DNA from: Saxibacter everestensis
GTDB taxonomy: Bacteria > Actinomycetota > Actinomycetes > Actinomycetales > Brevibacteriaceae
Reading direction: 5' to 3'
Assembly (NCBI RefSeq): GCF_025787225.1
Contig: NZ_CP090958.1
Coordinates: 3,272,550-3,336,549, forward strand
DNA length: 64,000 nt
How positions within the stretch are numbered: the stretch's first letter is position 1; each line of letters begins with the position of its first letter. This document shows positions 40,581 to 53,425 of this stretch, one piece after another. Position numbers and translations under genes: made by a program. Under the pieces are notes generated by a model. It ran no database searches. It was not told where the DNA came from and worked only from the letters and a program-made list of their open reading frames with translations.

Positions 40581-41024
40581 CTAGCCCCACGCGTTCTCTC
40601 GCCGCAAACCACGGCCCGGCAGCTCGGGTCGCAGTTGCCCACCCGCGAGCACAGGCACGCCCGCGACCAGCACGTCGTCGATGCCGACAGCCTCGCCGAG
40701 CGGCGAGTCATAGGTAGCGGTGTCAGCGACCGTATCGGAGTCAACCACGATGAGGTCGGCGGCCCAGTCCGGCGCAACGCGGCCCCGGCGGCCGAGCGAG
40801 AAGCGTTCGGCGGGCGCAGCTGACAGGTGCGAGGCAGCATCCGGCCATGACCAGGTATTCGTCTCGCGCACATACTCGCGAAGATACCGGGCGAAGGTGC
40901 CACGAGCGCGCGGGTGCGGATGCGCGCCGATGCCTGCACGCTCCAGCGGATCGAGCTGGCCCAGGACGACGTGAGCTTCCGCATGAAAGTCGACGACGGT
41001 CCCACCCTGCAATACCAGTCGCAT
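40581..41024 (-). pseudogene. Internally deleted N-acyl-D-amino-acid deacylase (D-aminoacylase) remnant
   Basis: The 147-codon frame begins like an amidohydrolase (MRLVLQGGTVVDF) but jumps straight to the C-terminal part of the family. There the segments HPHPRARGTFARYLREYVRE, HLSAAPAERFSLGRRGRVAP, ADLIVVDSDTVADTATYDS and GIDDVLVAGVPVLAGG are all recognisable. Normal family members have about 480-530 residues, so some 330 residues with the metal-binding barrel are missing. The join is in frame, at about codon 14. AAGGAG before the ATG and the stop codon are intact, so a short protein could still be made, but it cannot be catalytic. It lies with a D-amino-acid deaminase and KDG/KDPG enzymes, where a deacylase would be the first enzyme. 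Confidence 0.82.
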
Positions 41025-44151: not shown

Positions 44152-45711
44152 TTACCCCGGCTTCACACTCCGGCAGGCCAGGTGCAGGGCGAGCCTGGTC
44201 TCCGGATCGCCGAGGTCTACGTTGAGCAGGCGTTCAGACCGGGCGATCCGGTCGGCGACCGTGTTGCGGTGGATGCCGAGGATCGCGGCGGTTTCGGCCA
44301 GGGACGATTCGGTGTCGAGGTAGGTGCCGAGAGTGACCTGCAGGTCGCCGCCGGCATCGCGCAACGGCTCGAGTAGCTGGGCCGCCGCCGGTTGAAACGT
44401 ATCGGTGCGGGTCCAGGCGAGCAGGAGTTGCGCCAGTCCGAGCCGGTCGACGTGCAGGAAGTATCCGCTTTGCGGCCTTGTGCCCGCCAGCCTGGCCGCG
44501 TCACCGGCCTCCGCCAGGGAACGCATCAGGCCCACGGCCCCGGCATGGGCACGACCGACCCCGGTAAACGTTGCGATCGACTTGCGCAGATGGCCCTGGC
44601 CGCGGCGGAACCGCGAGGATATGTCGGCCAATTGAACCGGATCGGGCTCGTCGATGCTCGACGTCCACAGCACCCAGCCATCGACCTGCTCCACGACTTC
44701 CACATCGAGTCCTTCGGCGGCAAACGCAGATTGCACTTCGACACGTTGCGAGACCACGTCGACTGCATCCTGGGCGATCAGCCGGACTCCGACGTGCCAA
44801 TCGTGCAAGCGCCATCCGGCCTCCACCGCGCGCTGCAACAAGCCCGGCTGCACGTCCAGCTCGGCATCGCGCAGTTCATCCAGCAGGGCGGTTCGATGCC
44901 GCGCATCCCGCTCATCGACCAACCGCCGCAGCACAAGCCGATGCCCGACGACGACCGAGGCGACCTCCAGCGCGGCCAGGGTAGCGGCCAGCTCGGTCTG
45001 AAGTTCCGTCTGTACGACGGCGCCGATCCAGGAACGCGGACCGAATCCGGTGCCAACCGGTGCCGCGACCAGGCTTCGCCCGCCGCCTAGCGGCAGCGAG
45101 CAGGGGGAGCGCAGCCGGCCGAGCTCCCGCAGCGCCAGCGCGTCGGCTTCGTCGAACTGCTCGGCCGATCTCAGGATCTCGCCGGAGCCGTCAATCAAAA
45201 CCAGTGCTCGCCCCAACTCGGATTCGAGCAGATGCAGGGCCTCCTCCAGTTCTTCTCCGGCCTGCAGCCCGATCCGCGCGACCTGAAGTGTTGTCCGGGA
45301 AACGGCAGCGTCGGCGGAACCGAGCAGTTCGTGCACGGAAACGCTGGCTTGCCACGGGTCGACGGAGGTGAGGACTGCGATCTTGAGCCGGGCGGCCAGC
45401 AAAGCCGCACCAGGATCCAACGACACGCTGGTCGTATCCGGTTCGGCAAACAACACCGCGGTGATGCCGTGCCCGGCGCTTCGGCGGAGCAGCGTGTCGA
45501 AACGCCAGTCGAGCCGGCGGACCGGTGACAGCAAAACCAGCAGCACGCCGGTGAGGTCGCGGCTGGGGGAATGAGTCAGGGTCGCGGTCACTTGCTCAAG
45601 GCTGCCCGCAACTCCCCAGACGGCGCTGATCTGCTGATCGGGCTCGCCCGCCGCCAGTTTCATATCCGCCAGCGCAGGATGCGCCAACAGGCTGTGCAGT
45701 GAAACGCTCAC
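44152..45711 (-). CDS. PucR/CdaR family transcriptional regulator
   Basis: The protein of about 519 residues starts at GTG 45711, overlapping the DUF917 stop. The N-terminal PucR-like part begins VSVSLHSLLAHPALADMKL with the SLEQVTATLTHSPSRDLTG region. A GGDEF-like/CdaR middle follows, and the C-terminal PucR helix-turn-helix shows TYLDTESSLAETAAILGIHRNTVADRIAR. Family members often activate purine, ureide or sugar-acid catabolic operons. It is the last gene of the NCS1/hydantoinase/DUF917 operon and is probably its regulator. Confidence 0.88.
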   Translation of the reverse strand: MSVSLHSLLAHPALADMKLAAGEPDQQISAVWGVAGSLEQVTATLTHSPSRDLTGVLLVLLSPVRRLDWRFDTLLRRSAGHGITAVLFAEPDTTSVSLDPGAALLAARLKIAVLTSVDPWQASVSVHELLGSADAAVSRTTLQVARIGLQAGEELEEALHLLESELGRALVLIDGSGEILRSAEQFDEADALALRELGRLRSPCSLPLGGGRSLVAAPVGTGFGPRSWIGAVVQTELQTELAATLAALEVASVVVGHRLVLRRLVDERDARHRTALLDELRDAELDVQPGLLQRAVEAGWRLHDWHVGVRLIAQDAVDVVSQRVEVQSAFAAEGLDVEVVEQVDGWVLWTSSIDEPDPVQLADISSRFRRGQGHLRKSIATFTGVGRAHAGAVGLMRSLAEAGDAARLAGTRPQSGYFLHVDRLGLAQLLLAWTRTDTFQPAAAQLLEPLRDAGGDLQVTLGTYLDTESSLAETAAILGIHRNTVADRIARSERLLNVDLGDPETRLALHLACRSVKPG

Positions 45712-46823
45712 GCAGTCTCCGCAACTATCGGGTCGCAATCGATGCCGTATGCCCGCGGGCCCACGTGCGCCATCCGTTCCGGCGTCGAAGTCCACCATCG
45801 CGGGCCGGGTACCGTCAGCACCACGATCTCACGCCCGTCGCCGAGCTCTCCGGCATCAATTGGTTCATGGGTTCGGGCGTCGAGCACCGAAATGATGTCC
45901 GGGCAGGTGACAACCGGTTCGCCGTCGGTCAGCACCATCAGGTACTCGCTACCGGCTTCGACCCGGACCACTGCGCCGTCACGGAAATCCAGGATGGCGA
46001 AACTGGCGCGGACGAAGCTGCTGATGTCCGCCAGCCGGGAAACCGCGATCACGCGTCCGACGCAGAGCGTCCGACCGCCGAGCGCCGCGCCGATGGACTC
46101 CGGGCTGCCCCCAGTAGTTGTCAGCATTATCCGGCCCAACGCCAGCGCCCGTGACATGCTGCCCAGAATGGCGAATCCGGCGAGTTCGTCGAATGGCACC
46201 GGCCCCAGTGCGAAGGCACTCCAGCCGCCAGTCTGCGTCACCGCGGCGCGGATCACGGACTCGACCTGAGGCGGGTCCGCCGCGTCGAGGACCAGCTTGA
46301 GGCCATTCGGTCCGGTTATCGCAAAGGGCACTGTGGTCCGTCCGGCGACGGCAATCGAGAACTGGTCGAGCCGGGGAACCGAGCGGCCTTCGAGATCCGC
46401 GTCGATGACGGGAAGCGAAAGTTGACGTGCCACCGAAATCACTGCCAGGCCGCATACCCCGCCGATCTGGGAAGGCATCAGAGCCTCAGCCGTCACTCCG
46501 GTCCATTGTTCAATCGCTCCCACGGCACCGGCGAGCTCGTCCCCGGCAGGCAGCTTCTCATCCATCACCATGGTCGAGCCAAGGAAGCCGACCGCCATCA
46601 CGTGACGCAGTCCGAGCTGTCGATCATCGGCGCTTACCAGCGTGGCCAGCGGCCCATCGTCGACATGTCGCAGCTGGGCGACGATCTGCTCGACCCGACC
46701 ACCTCCGCCGCAGCCGAGCAGCGTCACGCCGAGGGCCAGCGCGTCCAGGTCAGGTTGGCTGAGCTGGTTGATGCCATCGAGTTCGCTGATGTCGTCGAGT
46801 TCCGAGCGCCGTTGCGCGACCAT
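45708..46823 (-). CDS. DUF917 family protein, paralogue A (divergent)
   Basis: The 371-residue DUF917 protein is the third tandem copy in transcription order. It keeps the overall frame (LGVTLLGCGGGG, MVMDEKLPAGDE, LPVIDAD, the C-terminal CPDIISVLDARTHEPIDAGEL and MAHVGPRAYGID). However, it has lost motifs shared by the other two copies. GGGG is followed by RVEQI instead of DPYIG, the E-x-GG-x-NS site reads QIGGVCG, and DGMGRAFPE reads DLEGRSVPR. This suggests a non-catalytic or altered subunit. It overlaps the PucR gene by 4 bp. Confidence 0.82.
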   Translation of the reverse strand: MVAQRRSELDDISELDGINQLSQPDLDALALGVTLLGCGGGGRVEQIVAQLRHVDDGPLATLVSADDRQLGLRHVMAVGFLGSTMVMDEKLPAGDELAGAVGAIEQWTGVTAEALMPSQIGGVCGLAVISVARQLSLPVIDADLEGRSVPRLDQFSIAVAGRTTVPFAITGPNGLKLVLDAADPPQVESVIRAAVTQTGGWSAFALGPVPFDELAGFAILGSMSRALALGRIMLTTTGGSPESIGAALGGRTLCVGRVIAVSRLADISSFVRASFAILDFRDGAVVRVEAGSEYLMVLTDGEPVVTCPDIISVLDARTHEPIDAGELGDGREIVVLTVPGPRWWTSTPERMAHVGPRAYGIDCDPIVAETA

Positions 46824-46825
46824 AC

Positions 46826-47941
46826 CTATATGCTGGCAGATTCCCGCTCCGACAGCCGCTCCACCGGCACAAATTCATCGTCGAGACCGAAGCACCCCGG
46901 ACCAAATGTTGCCAGTGCTTCGGGAGTGCGCATCATGTCGGGTGTCGAGATGCCGATCACCCGGACGCGCTGCCCGTAGCGGAGTCGCTCTGTCGTAATC
47001 GGCTCGGCATTCTCGGCGTCCAGCACGCAGATCAGATCCGGAACCACGGCGAGAGTCTTCCCGCCCAGCACGGCGACCAGGTTCTCGTTCTGGAAGGTGA
47101 TCTTGAGCTCGGGCTGGCCGGGCGCGCTCTGCACGGTCGCCTGGCCCTTGGCGAATCCCTCGGTGGTGCGCCGTTCCACATCGACGACCTTGCCCTCGAA
47201 CAGCACCCGCAAGTTCGAGTACAGCGTTGACGACAACGTCCTGGCCAGTTCGTCCGTCGGCACGACATGCGTTTCGCGGGCGCGGCGAATCGCCCGGCCG
47301 ACCTGCAGGGCCAGGGTTATGGTTCGAGGCACTGCAGTGTCCTTCACCTGGCGGCCGGTCATCGGGTATTCGGCGATGTGCGCGACGCCGCCGAGCCGGA
47401 TGGTGATCCCCCGGGCAAGCCACTCCATCTGCCGGTTGTCTTCCGCCGTGTCGATCACGACGCTGTGCCCCCGCTCGTCCGCGATCGCCATCGGAGAACC
47501 GGAGACCCCGTACACCGAGAATGTCTCCATGTGCAGTTCCGGGAAGGCGCGTCCCATCCCGTCGGCGTCGACGACCGGCAGACCGGTGCGCGCGCCAACC
47601 ACCAGCGGGATCATCGAATTGATGCCGCCACATTCGATCGGCATGGTGGCTCCGGCCTTGCGGCCAAGGTGACGCTCCAGCGCCGCGAGCGCGAGTTCCG
47701 GCTCGGCGCCGGACGGGATGCGTTCAAGCACCACCGTGGGCGCGCCCATCTGTGCGGTCGGGATGACGAAGGTGTCGTCTTCCAGTTCCTCCGGATCCAG
47801 GATGGTGATCGGCCCGTTCGCCCGGATCGCCTCGGCCACCAGCAGCTTGCCGATGTACGGGTCTCCCCCGCCGCCGGTGCCCAGCAATGCTGCCCCGCGG
47901 GCCAGGTCGTCAAGGTCACCGAGGTCAAGTGTCCAGGTCAT
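46826..47941 (-). CDS. DUF917 family protein, paralogue B
   Basis: The 371-residue DUF917 protein has the canonical features ALLGTGGGGDPYIG, TAQMGAPTVVLER, IECGGINSMIPLVV, DADGMGRAFPELHM and the C-terminal VPDLICVLDAENAEPITTERLRYG. DUF917 proteins usually sit beside hydantoinase-A-like genes, and a role in hydantoin- or oxoproline-type ring chemistry has been suggested, but the reaction is unproven. It overlaps copy C by 4 bp and precedes copy A by two bases, so the three copies are co-translated. Confidence 0.87.
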   Translation of the reverse strand: MTWTLDLGDLDDLARGAALLGTGGGGDPYIGKLLVAEAIRANGPITILDPEELEDDTFVIPTAQMGAPTVVLERIPSGAEPELALAALERHLGRKAGATMPIECGGINSMIPLVVGARTGLPVVDADGMGRAFPELHMETFSVYGVSGSPMAIADERGHSVVIDTAEDNRQMEWLARGITIRLGGVAHIAEYPMTGRQVKDTAVPRTITLALQVGRAIRRARETHVVPTDELARTLSSTLYSNLRVLFEGKVVDVERRTTEGFAKGQATVQSAPGQPELKITFQNENLVAVLGGKTLAVVPDLICVLDAENAEPITTERLRYGQRVRVIGISTPDMMRTPEALATFGPGCFGLDDEFVPVERLSERESASI

Positions 47942-49107
47942 GCCGCCACCCCCCGGGTTCCATCGAACCGGACCGGGTCCAGCTCGTAACCGAAGTACCG
48001 CGGGCCGACCAGGGCGAGCGCCTCGTCGCTGTGCCAGCGCGGATCGCTCGGCGCGGTCACCACCCGTACCCGCATGCCGTAACGCAGCGACTCAGTCGTG
48101 ACCGGCTCAGCCGTTTCGGCGTCCAGAACCATGATCAGGTCGGGAGTGCTCGTCTCGGCGGTTCCATCCAGTTCCACCAGCAAATGCTCGTTCTGGAACT
48201 GCAGGACGACCGACCGGCCGGCATCGGGACCGACACCCTCTATGGTCGCCCGACCGCGGGCGAACCCTGAAGTGGTACGGCGTTCGACGTCGGTCACCTT
48301 GCCGCCGGCAAGCAAGCGGCCATGCAGCAGTTCGGCCACGGCGGCCACCGGGTCACGATGTGCGGCGCGGGCCGACATCACCTCGGCCCCCAGCTGATCG
48401 CATAACGACAGCGTTCCTGGCACGTACGATTCGCGGACCTGCGCCCCGGACATCGCGTACGTGCTGATGATGGTCGAGCAGCCCATTTCCACGGTGGCCG
48501 GGCGGGCAAGTCGTTCGGCCCAGGCGTTGTCCACCGTATCGAAGATTCCGCTGTTGCCCTTTTCGTCGCAGATCGACATCGGGGTGGCCCGCACACCGTA
48601 AATGGACGGCAACACCATCTGGATTTCCGGGAACGCGCGACCCATCCCGTCACCATCTATCAGCGGCAGCCCGAGTTCCGCGGCAGCCACGATCGGGATG
48701 GTCGAGTTCACTCCGCCTGCCTCGATGCAGGCAATATGCGTCGGGGTGACACCCAGGTAGCGAGCCAGCGAATTCACCGCCTGGGCGAATTGGCCCTGCG
48801 AGGCCAGCTTCTCAACCATCACGGTCGGCGCGCCCATCATGGCGACCGGAATCACCACGGCGTCGGGGTCCAGGTCATCGACGGCCACCAGAGGGACGGG
48901 GCCATGCTTACGGATAGCGGCTTCGGCCAGCAGCCGGCCGATGTATGGGTCGCCACCGCCTCCGGTGCCAAGGATGGCGGCGCCGCGGGCAAGGTTGCCG
49001 CAGTCGGCGTCGATCTGCGATCTCCGGGTTTTGTCGGTACTCATCGTACGTTCGGCGGTCATCGCAGCCGTCCGTTCGGCGTTCATCGCAGTCTTATCGG
49101 CGTTCAT
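47938..49107 (-). CDS. DUF917 family protein, paralogue C
   Basis: The 389-residue DUF917 protein keeps the same motifs as copy B: AILGTGGGGDPYIG, AMMGAPTVMVEK, IEAGGVNSTIPIV, DGDGMGRAFPEIQM and TPDLIMVLDAETAEPVTTESLRYG. The N-terminus is unusual, with four related Met-initiated units (MNADKTA, MNAERTAA, MTAERT, MSTDKT) before homology begins. The first ATG at 49107 has GGGAGG upstream and overlaps the hydantoinase stop, so it is taken as the start. It is adjacent to the HyuA-like gene, the usual DUF917 partner. Confidence 0.87.
   Translation of the reverse strand: MNADKTAMNAERTAAMTAERTMSTDKTRRSQIDADCGNLARGAAILGTGGGGDPYIGRLLAEAAIRKHGPVPLVAVDDLDPDAVVIPVAMMGAPTVMVEKLASQGQFAQAVNSLARYLGVTPTHIACIEAGGVNSTIPIVAAAELGLPLIDGDGMGRAFPEIQMVLPSIYGVRATPMSICDEKGNSGIFDTVDNAWAERLARPATVEMGCSTIISTYAMSGAQVRESYVPGTLSLCDQLGAEVMSARAAHRDPVAAVAELLHGRLLAGGKVTDVERRTTSGFARGRATIEGVGPDAGRSVVLQFQNEHLLVELDGTAETSTPDLIMVLDAETAEPVTTESLRYGMRVRVVTAPSDPRWHSDEALALVGPRYFGYELDPVRFDGTRGVAA
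49042..49107 (-). repeat. Four degenerate start-codon repeats at the N-terminus of DUF917 copy C
   Basis: ATGs at 49107, 49086, 49062 and 49044 each open a similar 18-24-base unit of the form ATG-A-C/G-GCCGA-A/C-AC. All are in frame. The repeat array adds about 21 residues not present in copies A and B and offers alternative start sites. Confidence 0.65.
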
Positions 49108-50657
49108 CGCAGTCCTCCCAGGGCCAGATCGCCGACGGCCTTGGCCCGGATCCGGGTCGCATTGCCCGGCAGGTACGGAATCGGCACCTCGTCAAAGTCC
49201 ACAATCGCCACGCTGGAGGGCTCGGCTCCGGCGGCGACGGCGCGGTCCATCGCCTCCTGGCGAGCTTCGTCGACGACCTGACTGCGCTTGCCCTCCGAGA
49301 TCGCGTACACCCGGTCAACTTCGCCGCTGACCTGTGCGATGGCGGCGCCGATCGCGTTGGCCACCGAGAAATGTTCCGGCCGGTGCACAGTGCCCAGCCC
49401 GGGCAGCTCGTCGGGTACCAGAATGGAGCCTCCGCCGACGGCCACGACCGGCAGTGGGTCCGACGACGTACGCATCCGCTCCACGACGTCGGCAAATTTC
49501 TCGGCCACCAGGTCCATGGCGCGATTCGCAGTGGCCGTGTCCACCCCGGACACCAGGCTCTTGTCTCCGATGTCGGCCCGGCCGAGCGCGACGGCGACAT
49601 CGGTGGCGGTCAGCGTCGAGCCGCCGAACACCAACGCTTCGGAAATCAGCCTGTACCCGACGGAATCCGGGCCGACGCGTTCGCCTGCGTCAACGACCCG
49701 GGAGCCGCCGCCGATGCCGATCGACAGCACATCCGGCATCCGGAAGTTGGTGCGCACCCCGGCCACCGAGACTTCGCCGCTCGCCTCGCGAGGGAATCCC
49801 TGGTTGAGCACCCCGATGTCACTCGTGGTGCCACCGACGTCTACCACCGCGCAGGTGTCCAGGCCGGAAAGCACCGCGGCGCCGCGCATCGAGTTGGTGG
49901 GACCCGATGCGAACGTCGCAACCGGGTACCGGCGGGCAAAGTCGATATCCATCAGGGTTCCGTCATTCTGGCTCAGGAACAGCGGGGCCACGATGCCGCC
50001 GCCGCTGACTGACTTCGCCAGACCGTCGACTATGTGGTCGGCGAGGTCGCGCAGCGCGGCATTGATGATGGTCGCGTTCTCTCGCTCCAGCAGCCCGACC
50101 CGGCCAATTTCGTGCGAGAGCGACAGCGCGACGTCGTCCCCCAGTTCCTCCCGGAAGAGCTCGGCGGCCTCGATTTCGAACTCCGAATTGATCGGCGAAA
50201 ACACCGAGGAGATCGCTATCGACTTGATGCCGTGCGAGCGGATGTCGTCGGCGTGCCGTCGCAACTCGTCCCGGTCGAGGTCCGAGATCGTCCGGCCGTC
50301 GAACTCGTGTCCGCCATGGGCGAGGTAGGCGCGCCCACCGATCGCGCGCACCAGACCCTGCGGCCAGTCCACCAGCGGCGGCAGCGAGGCGGTCGCGGGA
50401 AGACCCAGCCGGACCGCCGCCGTGGGGGCGAGCCCGTTCTGTTCGATCAGCGCGTTGATGAAGTGCGTCGTGCCGATCATCACGGCGTCGATCTCATCCG
50501 GGTGGAAGGCGCGTTGTTCTTGCAGGCCTTCCAGGGCCGCGACGATTCCGGAGGTGACGTCGCTCGTGGTGGATCGCTTGATCCCGGCCGCGACGGTGTT
50601 TCCCTCCATCAGCACGGCGTCCGTGTTGGTGCCGCCTACGTCGATTCCGATCCGCAT
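49104..50657 (-). CDS. Hydantoinase/oxoprolinase family protein (HyuA-like, ASKHA fold)
   Basis: The 517-residue protein has the Hydant_A_N segment MRIGIDVGGTNTDAVLM. The Hydantoinase_A domain has a second phosphate-binding motif VDVGGTTSDIGVL and AVGGGSILVPDELPGLG. It is shorter than classic N-methylhydantoinase A (about 690 residues) but matches the short form that travels with DUF917. ATP-dependent hydrolysis of a cyclic amide such as a hydantoin or 5-oxoproline-like ring is the family theme. AAAGGG precedes ATG 50657. It overlaps DUF917 copy C by 4 bp. Confidence 0.88.
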   Translation of the reverse strand: MRIGIDVGGTNTDAVLMEGNTVAAGIKRSTTSDVTSGIVAALEGLQEQRAFHPDEIDAVMIGTTHFINALIEQNGLAPTAAVRLGLPATASLPPLVDWPQGLVRAIGGRAYLAHGGHEFDGRTISDLDRDELRRHADDIRSHGIKSIAISSVFSPINSEFEIEAAELFREELGDDVALSLSHEIGRVGLLERENATIINAALRDLADHIVDGLAKSVSGGGIVAPLFLSQNDGTLMDIDFARRYPVATFASGPTNSMRGAAVLSGLDTCAVVDVGGTTSDIGVLNQGFPREASGEVSVAGVRTNFRMPDVLSIGIGGGSRVVDAGERVGPDSVGYRLISEALVFGGSTLTATDVAVALGRADIGDKSLVSGVDTATANRAMDLVAEKFADVVERMRTSSDPLPVVAVGGGSILVPDELPGLGTVHRPEHFSVANAIGAAIAQVSGEVDRVYAISEGKRSQVVDEARQEAMDRAVAAGAEPSSVAIVDFDEVPIPYLPGNATRIRAKAVGDLALGGLR

Positions 50658-50732
50658 TGTCTACCCTTTCCTGCTGTCTCTACTAGCTGCGTCGCTGTCG
50701 GTATGTGTCTGTCGGTATTGTTGTCAGTCGTT

Positions 50733-50802
50733 TGGCGCTGTGCCTTCCCGCCGCCTGGCGCTGTCGCCTTCCGGCCGCTTGGCGCCGTGGCCTCCGGCCG
50801 CG
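50733..50802. repeat. Three 23-24-bp tandem repeats between permease and hydantoinase genes
   Basis: Units at 50733-50755, 50756-50779 and 50780-50802 each begin TGGCGC(T/C)GT and end with a G/C-rich CCGC segment. A degenerate fourth unit starts at 50803. They fill most of the 178-bp gap between the CodB-like stop and the hydantoinase start, and no gene is visible here. They might form RNA structure separating the two cistrons. Confidence 0.7.
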
Positions 50803-50835
50803 TGGTGCTACCGGTTACGCCTCCTGGCGCTCCGC

Positions 50836-52185
50836 TCAGCCATGGGTTCTGGCCGCATCGTGCTCGGTGGCGGACTGTCCGATACCGCGAACGAGGCCGA
50901 GCTTCCCGGCGATCACATAGAGCAGGAACGCCGCGAGCACGGAGTTGATCGATGGGATGCCAACTGAAACGAAGTGCCCGATCAACGCGGACGCGAGCCA
51001 GATCACGATGGTGGCCGGAACCCAGGTCGGCGAGTGCGGCGGGGTTGCTTCCCGGGCGGCCACGAGCTGCGGGCGCCACTTCTTCACCACGAAGTATTCG
51101 GCAATCATGATGCCCGCCACGGGAGGGAAGGCAACGCCAAGGATGCTGAGGAAGCCAACGAAATTCTGCAGGATCCCGCCGGCCGCCAGCAGCGAACCGA
51201 CGATGCCGATCACCAGAGTGACAATTGCACGATTCACCTTGCGCCCGAACACCCGGTCGATGAAGTTCACCACGCCGAGACCGGAGCTGTAGAGGTTCCA
51301 GTCGTTGATCTTGAACGTGCCCAGCAGGATGATCAGCACGCCGACCCAGCCGACTGAGGAGGTGACGATATTGATGATGTCCGCCGATTTCACCGCGTGG
51401 GCGAGCAGGACGCCGGACAGGCCGATAACGTACTCGCCGAGGGTAACGCCGAGCACCGTCTGCTTCACGACGTCGCCGACCGATCGGTTGAACCGGGTCA
51501 TATCGGGCGTGATCACGGCGCCCACGATGAATCCACCGGCCACGAGCGTGGTGCCGGCGACGAACGTCAGCTGTGGGCCCGCGGGCGCCGAGGAGACCAG
51601 TTCGGCAAGCGAGTGATTCTGCAGTTCCGAGATGAATGCCCAGCCGACCAGGATTAGGAACAACGGCACGGTGATATTTGCGACCCACTGCATGGAATGG
51701 AATCCGCGAAGCACGATGGCGGTCACAACGAGTCCGAAGATCAGCGACCACAGCCAGACCGGGAAGATCGGCAATAGCGTGGCAAGTCCGGCGGCGGATA
51801 CCCCTGACTGCACGCCGAACCAGCCGATCAGGCTGATGCCGATAGCTAGGCCGAGAAGTGCGGACCCGCCTGCGCCGAAGCCGGTCCAGCGGGCGATGAC
51901 CGAGGTGTTGAGGCCCTCGCGCATGCCGATCACGCCGACCAGGATGGTCACCGCTTCCAGGATCACAGCACCGACGGTGATCGCCCAAAATGCAGACCAG
52001 AAATTCATCCCGAAGCCCAGCGTCGCGCCAAGCAGGAATTGGGAAAGCGCGGAGATCTGACCGAATCGTTGCACCGCGACCTGGAACCAGCCATAGCGCG
52101 CAGACTGTGGGACTCTTTGCAATGCATAGTCGTCTACGGCAAGCTTTTCTTCCACAGCATGCACCGGACTGGTTTTCTCGGCCAT
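50836..52185 (-). CDS. NCS1 family purine/cytosine permease (CodB-like)
   Basis: The 449-residue membrane protein has about twelve hydrophobic segments and NCS1/CodB-type features. These are a cytoplasmic lead with DDYALQRVPQSARYGW, then QISALSQFLLGATLGFGMNFWSAF, GFGAGGSALLGLAIGISLIGWFGVQ and SVGWVGVLIILLGTFKINDWNLYSSGLGVVNF. It imports a nucleobase, hydantoin or related cyclic ureide with protons or Na+. As first gene of the hydantoinase/DUF917 operon it probably supplies the operon substrate. CGAGGAG precedes ATG 52185. Confidence 0.9.
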   Translation of the reverse strand: MAEKTSPVHAVEEKLAVDDYALQRVPQSARYGWFQVAVQRFGQISALSQFLLGATLGFGMNFWSAFWAITVGAVILEAVTILVGVIGMREGLNTSVIARWTGFGAGGSALLGLAIGISLIGWFGVQSGVSAAGLATLLPIFPVWLWSLIFGLVVTAIVLRGFHSMQWVANITVPLFLILVGWAFISELQNHSLAELVSSAPAGPQLTFVAGTTLVAGGFIVGAVITPDMTRFNRSVGDVVKQTVLGVTLGEYVIGLSGVLLAHAVKSADIINIVTSSVGWVGVLIILLGTFKINDWNLYSSGLGVVNFIDRVFGRKVNRAIVTLVIGIVGSLLAAGGILQNFVGFLSILGVAFPPVAGIMIAEYFVVKKWRPQLVAAREATPPHSPTWVPATIVIWLASALIGHFVSVGIPSINSVLAAFLLYVIAGKLGLVRGIGQSATEHDAARTHG

Positions 52186-52300: not shown

Positions 52301-53425
52301 CTATTTTTCCCTGGTTGTCGGCTCTGTATCCGCGGACAGCGTCGCGAGCTCAGCCTCGAGGTCTTCGATGCTGGGCAGGCTTGAGGCGAATTCCTCCGGC
52401 AGTGACTCGACGACCTCGGTCTTCCATTCGGCGACGCCCATCGGCATCGTGAAACCCCGCAATGCATATTCGGCTACCACGCTGTTCTTGCTCTTACACA
52501 GCAGAAGCCCAATCGTCGGCTTGTCGTCGGGATGAGCCAGAAGGTCATCCACAGCGCTCATGTACATCCCAAGCTGTCCCACATAGCTCGGCTCGAACTT
52601 GGTCGCCTTGAGTTCGATGACGACATAGCAACGCAGTTTGAGGTGATAGAAGAGCAGGTCGACGAAGAACTCGTCGTCGCCAACGACAAGCCGCACCTGC
52701 TGCCCGACAAAGGCGAATCCCTGGCCGAGTTCGAGTAGGAACTTCTCGACCTGGCTAACAAGTTGAGCCTCCAGCTCTCGCTCGTTGCGCTGGTCGGCCA
52801 TCGCGAGGAAATCGAAGATGTACGGGTCTTTCATCGCCTGCAGCGCCAGATCCGAATCGGCTGGAGGCAGCGTTGCTGAAAAATTCGTGACTGCTTCACC
52901 AGATCGCTCATGGAGCTTGGACCCGATCTGTTGGATGAGGAGGTTGCGGGACCAGCCTCCGTCGACGGCTACTGCCGCATACCACAGACGTGTCTCGGGG
53001 TCGTTGAGCTTCTCGAGCAATGCGATTTGGTGGTACCAGGGCAATTGTGCAAGAGACGCTTGCACAATTGCCTGGTCCGGCCATGCAGCGGCGAACGCCC
53101 TCATATACTTCAGATTTCGAGGAGAATAGCCTTTACTACCCGGGAACTGAGACCGCACGTCACCGGACAGCCTGTCGACGACTCTTGCACCCCACCCCTC
53201 CTCACTTTGGCGCTCCAAGATGTCGCGCCCAATGGCCCAATACGTCATGAGCATCTCCTGGCTTGCGGCGGCGATTGCCTTGGAGCGTCCAACTGCAACC
53301 CGTCGTACAACGGACGCCAGTAAGTCGTGATACCAGTCGGGCATCGAGGGGCGTGCCGGTACGGCTGGGAACGAAGCTTTCGACTCACTCTCTGCAACTT
53401 CGGCCGAGGCCTTTTCGTCGTTCAC
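52301..53425 (-). CDS. PDDEXK nuclease domain protein (YhcG/DUF1016)
   Basis: The 374-residue protein has the DUF1016 N-terminal helical domain (MLMTYWAIGRDILERQ, GWGARVVDRLSGDVRSQFPG, GYSPRNLKYMRAFA, LPWYHQIALLEKL). A PD-(D/E)XK domain follows, with FVDLLFYHLKLRCYVVIELKATKF containing the D...ExK core. Members are predicted nucleases found near restriction systems or alone. None of the usual partners is present here. It starts with GTG 53425 after an AT-rich 100 bp that should hold its promoter. Confidence 0.9.
   Translation of the reverse strand: MNDEKASAEVAESESKASFPAVPARPSMPDWYHDLLASVVRRVAVGRSKAIAAASQEMLMTYWAIGRDILERQSEEGWGARVVDRLSGDVRSQFPGSKGYSPRNLKYMRAFAAAWPDQAIVQASLAQLPWYHQIALLEKLNDPETRLWYAAVAVDGGWSRNLLIQQIGSKLHERSGEAVTNFSATLPPADSDLALQAMKDPYIFDFLAMADQRNERELEAQLVSQVEKFLLELGQGFAFVGQQVRLVVGDDEFFVDLLFYHLKLRCYVVIELKATKFEPSYVGQLGMYMSAVDDLLAHPDDKPTIGLLLCKSKNSVVAEYALRGFTMPMGVAEWKTEVVESLPEEFASSLPSIEDLEAELATLSADTEPTTREK

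Follow-up and report, generated by a model that had tools for sequence, protein, structure and literature searches.

A 64,000-nucleotide stretch of the Saxibacter everestensis genome (contig NZ_CP090958.1, positions 3,272,550 to 3,336,549; referred to below as the window) carries a cassette of six minus-strand genes that encode, in the direction of transcription, an NCS1-family permease, a short HydA, three paralogous DUF917 proteins (C, B, and A), and a PucR-type regulator. Comparative analysis of this cassette indicated that A is a divergent, probably regulatory DUF917 protein that would work with PucR. The gene immediately downstream of A encoded PucR in 70 of 71 testable cases, and the same held for 8 of 9 distant A-like genes; the corresponding counts were 0 of 75 for B, 1 of 76 for C, and 1 of 96 for other DUF917 genes. 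The reading that we tentatively favor divides the cassette into an enzyme part (permease, HydA, C, and B) and a regulatory part (A and PucR), in which A would be an enzyme-derived partner of PucR. Gene content and position agreed with the original prediction for this locus: all six open reading frames (ORFs) were found on the minus strand, and each family assignment was confirmed by Pfam.

50836..52185, minus strand: NCS1-family permease (ORF, Pfam, nearest solved relatives)
49104..50657, minus strand: short HydA-type ASKHA ATPase, 517 amino acids, with Hydant_A_N and Hydantoinase_A domains (ORF, Pfam)
50619..50642, minus strand: HydA phosphate-1 motif DVGGTNTD (sequence; motif definition from PMC5214803)
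49818..49841, minus strand: HydA phosphate-2 motif DVGGTTSD (sequence; same motif definition)
47938..49107, minus strand: DUF917/S-Me-THD-like paralogue C, canonical type (ORF, Pfam)
46826..47941, minus strand: DUF917/S-Me-THD-like paralogue B, canonical type (ORF, Pfam, AlphaFold model)
45708..46823, minus strand: DUF917/S-Me-THD-like paralogue A, divergent, fast-evolving, and PucR-linked (ORF, Pfam, AlphaFold model)
46452..46469, minus strand: site Q119...C124 of A, counterpart of the E...N pair of the family, E103/N108 in B (alignment)
44152..45711, minus strand: PucR-type regulator with HTH_30 and GGDEF_2 domains (ORF, Pfam, junction reading)

Translational coupling, as predicted, was evident from ATGA overlaps at the HydA/C and C/B junctions, a 2-bp gap between B and A, and an overlap of the A stop with the PucR start as GTGA. 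This last overlap put the PucR start at GTG 45711 and not at 45798, where the long ORF begins. All cassette junctions other than the NCS1-HydA spacer were tight, and A, B, and C were the only DUF917 genes in the whole 4.05-Mb genome. The C-terminal helix-turn-helix domain of PucR (PF13556, HTH_30) scored 67.4 against a cut-off of 27. Its N-terminal PucR sensor domain (PF07905) was not reported at E ≤ 0.01; faint N-terminal similarity could be seen by eye. The predicted control of the cassette by PucR was supported.

Since the standard gene order is inherited, rearranged loci were the informative cases for a link between A and PucR. In Nonomuraea gerenzanensis (L214, L167) and Nonomuraea sp. 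PA05 (L226), A and PucR stood alone, approximately 16-17 kb from NCS1-HydA-C-B. In loci L222 and L141 the pair occupied the strand opposite to the enzyme genes, and in L062 it preceded racemase-NCS1-HydA-C. Among 77 A loci, the A-B gap exceeded 250 bp or B was absent in 11, and L109 (444 bp) was the only locus with a measured A-PucR gap above 250 bp. By the gap measure, PucR was missing from another four A loci; two of these were located at contig ends and two had PucR downstream in a separate locus scan. Linkage of A to the regulator was therefore conserved independently of the enzyme genes. A search for fusions of the A and PucR genes yielded none.

A evolved at approximately 2.9 times the rate of B and 2.1 times that of C. 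A and PucR changed equally fast: mean protein distances over 59 full cassettes were 0.92 for A and 0.90 for PucR, followed by C (0.44), the NCS1 permease (0.37), B (0.32), and HydA (0.29). Partial correlations of the distance matrices were 0.51 for PucR-HydA, 0.43 for B-C (the strongest among DUF917 pairs), 0.34 for A-PucR (the largest involving A), and -0.08 for A-B; as these values derive from related loci with non-independent points, in which fast genes share noise, they are indications rather than tests.

In three further loci (L077, 7932-12068; L079, 8426-12364; L215, 7023-11409), a pseudo-HydA from which both phosphate motifs were gone was followed by an A-like DUF917 gene and then by PucR. 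The A-like protein had lost E103 (B numbering) in all three loci and GGGG in L077 and L079. L077 also contained a complete long HydA/HydB pair, with Hydant_A_C present in the long HydA, and L079 apparently did likewise. A dead HydA/A-like pair beside a regulator gene would look like the expected outcome of conversion into a sensor. More speculatively, A-type DUF917 proteins and pseudo-HydA/A-like pairs may be enzyme-derived ligand sensors for PucR, in which case a duplicated catabolic enzyme pair would have come to supply the signal for the operon to which it belongs.

The original prediction was of a heteromeric complex with two active-type subunits and one degenerate subunit. In this model, A, B, and C would form a single complex with HydA, in which B and C are active and A serves as a degenerate structural or allosteric subunit; A would adjoin PucR only because the enzyme genes of the operon end with it. 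Such a complex is consistent with the fixed HydA-C-B-A order in 59 loci, the coupled starts in the window, the distinct clades of A, B, and C, each represented once per genome, and the high raw distance correlations (A-B 0.85, A-C 0.90, A-HydA 0.93). Relatives with duplicated and diverged subunits also exist, as in the alpha/alpha' subunits of acetophenone carboxylase (PMC5214803). However, upon operon rearrangement A parted from B, C, and HydA and stayed with PucR, its partial correlation with B was slightly negative, and the A-like genes with pseudo-HydA and PucR occurred without B or C. Moreover, HydA elsewhere works with one or two DUF917 proteins, and in Geodermatophilus HydA-C-B was present with A missing from the genome. 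Reading A as a degenerate subunit is possible and is not the best-supported interpretation; the four-protein complex as a whole was judged unlikely.

At the sequence level, A shared 28% identity with B and 31% with C, in line with the predicted occurrence of two canonical DUF917 copies and one divergent copy. The accompanying claim, that A had lost all three motifs retained in B and C, proved too strong. In an alignment of DUF917 sequences (72 of A, 76 of B, 78 of C, and 61 others; residues in B numbering), A orthologues kept, at 96-100%, the GxGGGG glycines, G66, E73, G106, D125, D127, G130, R131, P134, E173, R177, G215, E286, and P301. The A protein of the window had every one of these universal residues, with G-C-GGGG, GG, and DxDxxGRxxP kept. 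What had gone was decoration specific to B and C: A departed from these at DPYIG, F133, M138 and K251 (Q and R, respectively, in A), Q284, and comparable positions. In addition, E103 was replaced by Q together with replacement of N108 by C or T in the window and 10 relatives. The pair was E,N in 61 A sequences and either Q,T or Q,C in the other 11, and was never mixed. These 11 Q-type sequences were those of the window, Brevibacterium mcbrellneri (twice: L047, L098), Curtobacterium, and Microlunatus; those of the window, Curtobacterium, and Microlunatus formed one well-supported group (100/98). Judged from the alignment, the A of the window belongs to a subgroup that has lost a pair otherwise near-invariant across the family.

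In a first phylogenetic tree, A, B, and C formed separate supported groups (99/96, 100/99, and 100/100, respectively), with one copy per genome each. A wider tree, with a midpoint root and long branches, placed A apart from all HydA-linked DUF917 proteins (100/99). Recent duplication of B or C as the origin of A was not supported, as the A clade fell outside both, its exact place being unsure with this root and these branch lengths.

A might alternatively be a third active enzyme, with another substrate or stereochemical preference, that widens the range of the cassette or carries out a following step. Conservation of GxGGGG, E73, D125, D127, R131, E173, R177, and E286 at 99-100%, the shared predicted fold, and the position of A beside its own second HydA in locus L048 all agree with this possibility. 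It was nevertheless considered improbable, since the A subgroup of the window (11 of 72) is without the near-invariant E103/N108 pair, since A evolved at 2-3 times the rate of B and C, and since A accompanied PucR even without HydA nearby.

Apart from the limits of the distance correlations, three points weigh against a regulatory function of A with PucR. All universal DUF917 residues are kept in A, and E103/N108 are kept in most A sequences, so that A may still be capable of catalysis. Genetic linkage by itself is no proof that A and the regulator are in contact. Finally, cassettes lacking A are also served by PucR (L065, L217, and those of Listeria), so PucR does not in general require A for its function.

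Within the enzyme part, the predicted permease was confirmed, with a score of 96.9 against a cut-off of 23.5 for PF02133 (Transp_cyt_pur). Its nearest solved relative was the CodB cytosine permease (7qoa), followed more weakly by the Mhp1 hydantoin permease. It scored below the curated cut-offs of the cytosine permease and NCS1-subfamily models (187.5 versus 326 and 103.5 versus 353.1, respectively). HydA of the window carried both ASKHA phosphate motifs as defined for HydA-type subunits (PMC5214803) in addition to Hydant_A_N and Hydantoinase_A; Hydant_A_C was absent from it in a Pfam search, and the cassette contained no HydB gene. The sole HydB of the genome adjoins its sole long HydA, approximately 3.1 Mb from the cassette in contig coordinates. 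Shortness of HydA, originally presented as a special feature, turned out to be normal beside DUF917: DUF917-linked HydA proteins measured approximately 500-535 amino acids in actinobacteria, alphaproteobacteria, Listeria, and Haloferax, so that this length is the rule for this HydA branch.

HydA-type subunits phosphorylate amide or keto carbonyls, after which a second, metal-binding subunit finishes the reaction (caprolactamase, PMC8453981; acetophenone carboxylase, PMC5214803). Given a HydA without the C-terminal domain, an operon without HydB, and a genome whose only HydB stands with another HydA, the simplest reading is that C and/or B replace HydB. In the proposed mechanism, the substrate, a cyclic amide or ureide that is small and planar, would enter through the NCS1 permease, HydA would phosphorylate a ring carbonyl to yield an imidate phosphate, and C and/or B would hydrolyze the activated ring in place of the missing HydB, the overall conversion being an ATP-dependent opening of a hydantoin-like ring. 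Genes of the Asp/Glu/hydantoin-racemase family occurred in approximately 19 other HydA-DUF917 loci and, together with the relatives of the permease, suggest a small, chiral, hydantoin-like substrate. In the regulatory part, A, which has kept fold and core and has drifted fast, would act with PucR as a ligand-sensing protein or as an anti- or co-regulator rather than as a third catalytic subunit.

All three paralogues exceeded the curated cut-off of 27 bits for both PF06032 and PF20906 (119/128.5 for A, 199.6/217.5 for B, and 193.3/216.6 for C) and had lengths of approximately 360-390 amino acids, which identified them as S-Me-THD-like (DUF917) proteins. Pfam and NCBIfam now name this family after (S-methyl-)thiohydantoin desulfurases. 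The statement that DUF917 chemistry is unproven thus no longer applied to the family as a whole and still held for the HydA-linked branch: A, B, and C scored 61-102 bits with the thiohydantoin desulfurase equivalog models NF058532 and NF058529, far below the cut-offs of 440/450. By these scores, the name "thiohydantoin desulfurase" does not transfer to the DUF917 proteins of the cassette. AlphaFold models of complete A (pLDDT 92.6) and B (pLDDT 95.5) matched a single structure, CV_3147 (2o3i), with TM values of 0.75 and 0.83, respectively. A relationship in fold between DUF917 and either HydB or the C-terminal domain of HydA was accordingly rejected. In the alignment, CV_3147 was without the N108 and E73 of the HydA-linked type. 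The idea that B and C, possibly along with A, act as desulfurases of thiohydantoin or S-methyl-thiohydantoin in a cassette degrading a sulfur heterocycle of the ergothioneine/thiohydantoin kind was judged very improbable: the family naming, the sole fold relative, and OsmC and cysteine synthase genes between two DUF917 genes in one streptomycete plasmid cassette speak for it, but the equivalog scores and the residues absent from CV_3147 speak against it, those sulfur-related neighbors occurred in one locus only, and the known desulfurase step of the ergothioneine pathway is not known to need HydA.

Genome surveys rejected the idea that the DUF917 triplet is rare, and with it the premise that DUF917 normally occurs once or twice. 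All six genes were present in 59 distinct loci, window included. In an order-level sample of 396 genomes, DUF917 was found in 40 and the full NCS1-HydA-C-B-A-PucR cassette, with the triplet in the same order and among the same neighbors, in 11 besides the window. A species-genome scan seeded with B returned 80 named loci, the majority of which carried this cassette. Hosts included Kribbella, Amycolatopsis, Saccharopolyspora, Pseudonocardia, Planotetraspora, Curtobacterium, Microbacterium, Leifsonia, Leucobacter, and Mycetocola; the cassette is common in soil and skin actinobacteria. Within the window's own family, only 14 of 60 genomes gave any match, which indicated a patchy distribution. Triplets are thus common, and the searched literature, in which DUF917 was mentioned only in passing, yielded no substrate or function for HydA-DUF917 operons or triplets. 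The triplet is real but ordinary; the point of interest is the A-PucR pair, in whose light the third paralogue becomes a probable regulatory partner.

Variant cassettes comprised HydA-C-A-PucR (L060, L061), HydA-B-A-PucR (L049, L138), and NCS1-HydA-C-PucR (L065). L048 (7153-13644), with the order NCS1-B-HydA-C-HydA-A-PucR, contained two genes for short HydA proteins, the first located between B and C and the second immediately preceding A, an arrangement that may reflect pairing of HydA with individual DUF917 proteins. In Rhizobiales, HydA-B-B' was accompanied by an ABC transporter and an Asp/Glu-racemase-family gene. Haloferax mediterranei had a different DUF917 trio, and another genome (G1080) had three tandem canonical copies. 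Elsewhere, the minimal unit was one DUF917 gene and one short HydA gene, in Listeria as PucR-permease-DUF917-HydA. In L. rhamnosus, a cytosine permease gene precedes DUF917 and HydA. A permease-DUF917-hydantoinase operon is known from C. difficile (CDR20291_1615-1617; PMC12915319).

In a Streptomycetaceae plasmid (L168, 4943-13213), the order was NCS1-HydA-DUF917-OsmC-cysteine synthase-DUF917-PucR, a possible link to sulfur in one locus only; sulfur-metabolism neighbors were on that account rejected as a clue to the substrate. Genes between B and A in Amycolatopsis were likewise rejected, as they had no Pfam match or encoded a trypsin-like protein.

The NCS1-HydA spacer of the window (50658-50835, minus strand; 178 bp) contained imperfect GC-rich repeats (GGCGCCA...GCGGCCGGAAGGC...). 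It was rejected as a structured RNA (fold z = -0.96), and a promoter and terminator scan showed no excess over shuffled sequences. Just upstream of the cassette, a gene for a DUF1016/YhcG PDDEXK nuclease (52301-53425, minus strand) may mark mobile or variable DNA at the cassette edge. Flanked by an IclR gene and a D-serine-dehydratase-like gene, a C-terminal remnant of approximately 145 amino acids of an Amidohydro_3/D-aminoacylase-like protein (40581-41024, minus strand) looks like a pseudogene, the rest of the protein being absent from the other frames of the surrounding stretch.

HydA-DUF917 operons span actinobacteria, proteobacteria, Firmicutes, and archaea. A division into an enzyme part and a regulatory part would tell which genes to express for activity and which for identifying the inducer, and hence the substrate. 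If A is indeed a converted enzyme that feeds PucR, it would provide a new input to a family of regulators that is very common and for which few ligands are known.

The cassette resembles the operons of Listeria, C. difficile, and L. rhamnosus in its NCS1-type permease, DUF917, and short HydA and, for Listeria, in PucR; the Firmicutes operons differ in having one DUF917 per HydA, no A-type copy, and another gene order. With the ATP-dependent hydantoinase, oxoprolinase, and caprolactamase systems (HyuAB/CapAB) it shares an ASKHA kinase subunit, the DVGGT motifs, and the expected activation of a ring carbonyl by ATP, whereas Hydant_A_C and a metal-binding HydB partner are missing and DUF917 stands in place of the latter. 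With the S-methyl-thiohydantoin/thiohydantoin desulfurase CV_3147, the DUF917 proteins have in common both Pfam domains, the fold, and the GxGGGG and DxDGxGR core; they differ in scoring far below equivalog level, at E73 and N108, in their linkage to HydA, and in occurring as three copies. Transcription regulators under the control of a metabolic enzyme, or of a former one, include DhaR, with DhaK/DhaL, and GltC, with RocG. By analogy, the role proposed for A would be that of a relative of a catabolic enzyme acting on the transcription factor of its operon, in families different from those of the putative A-PucR pair.

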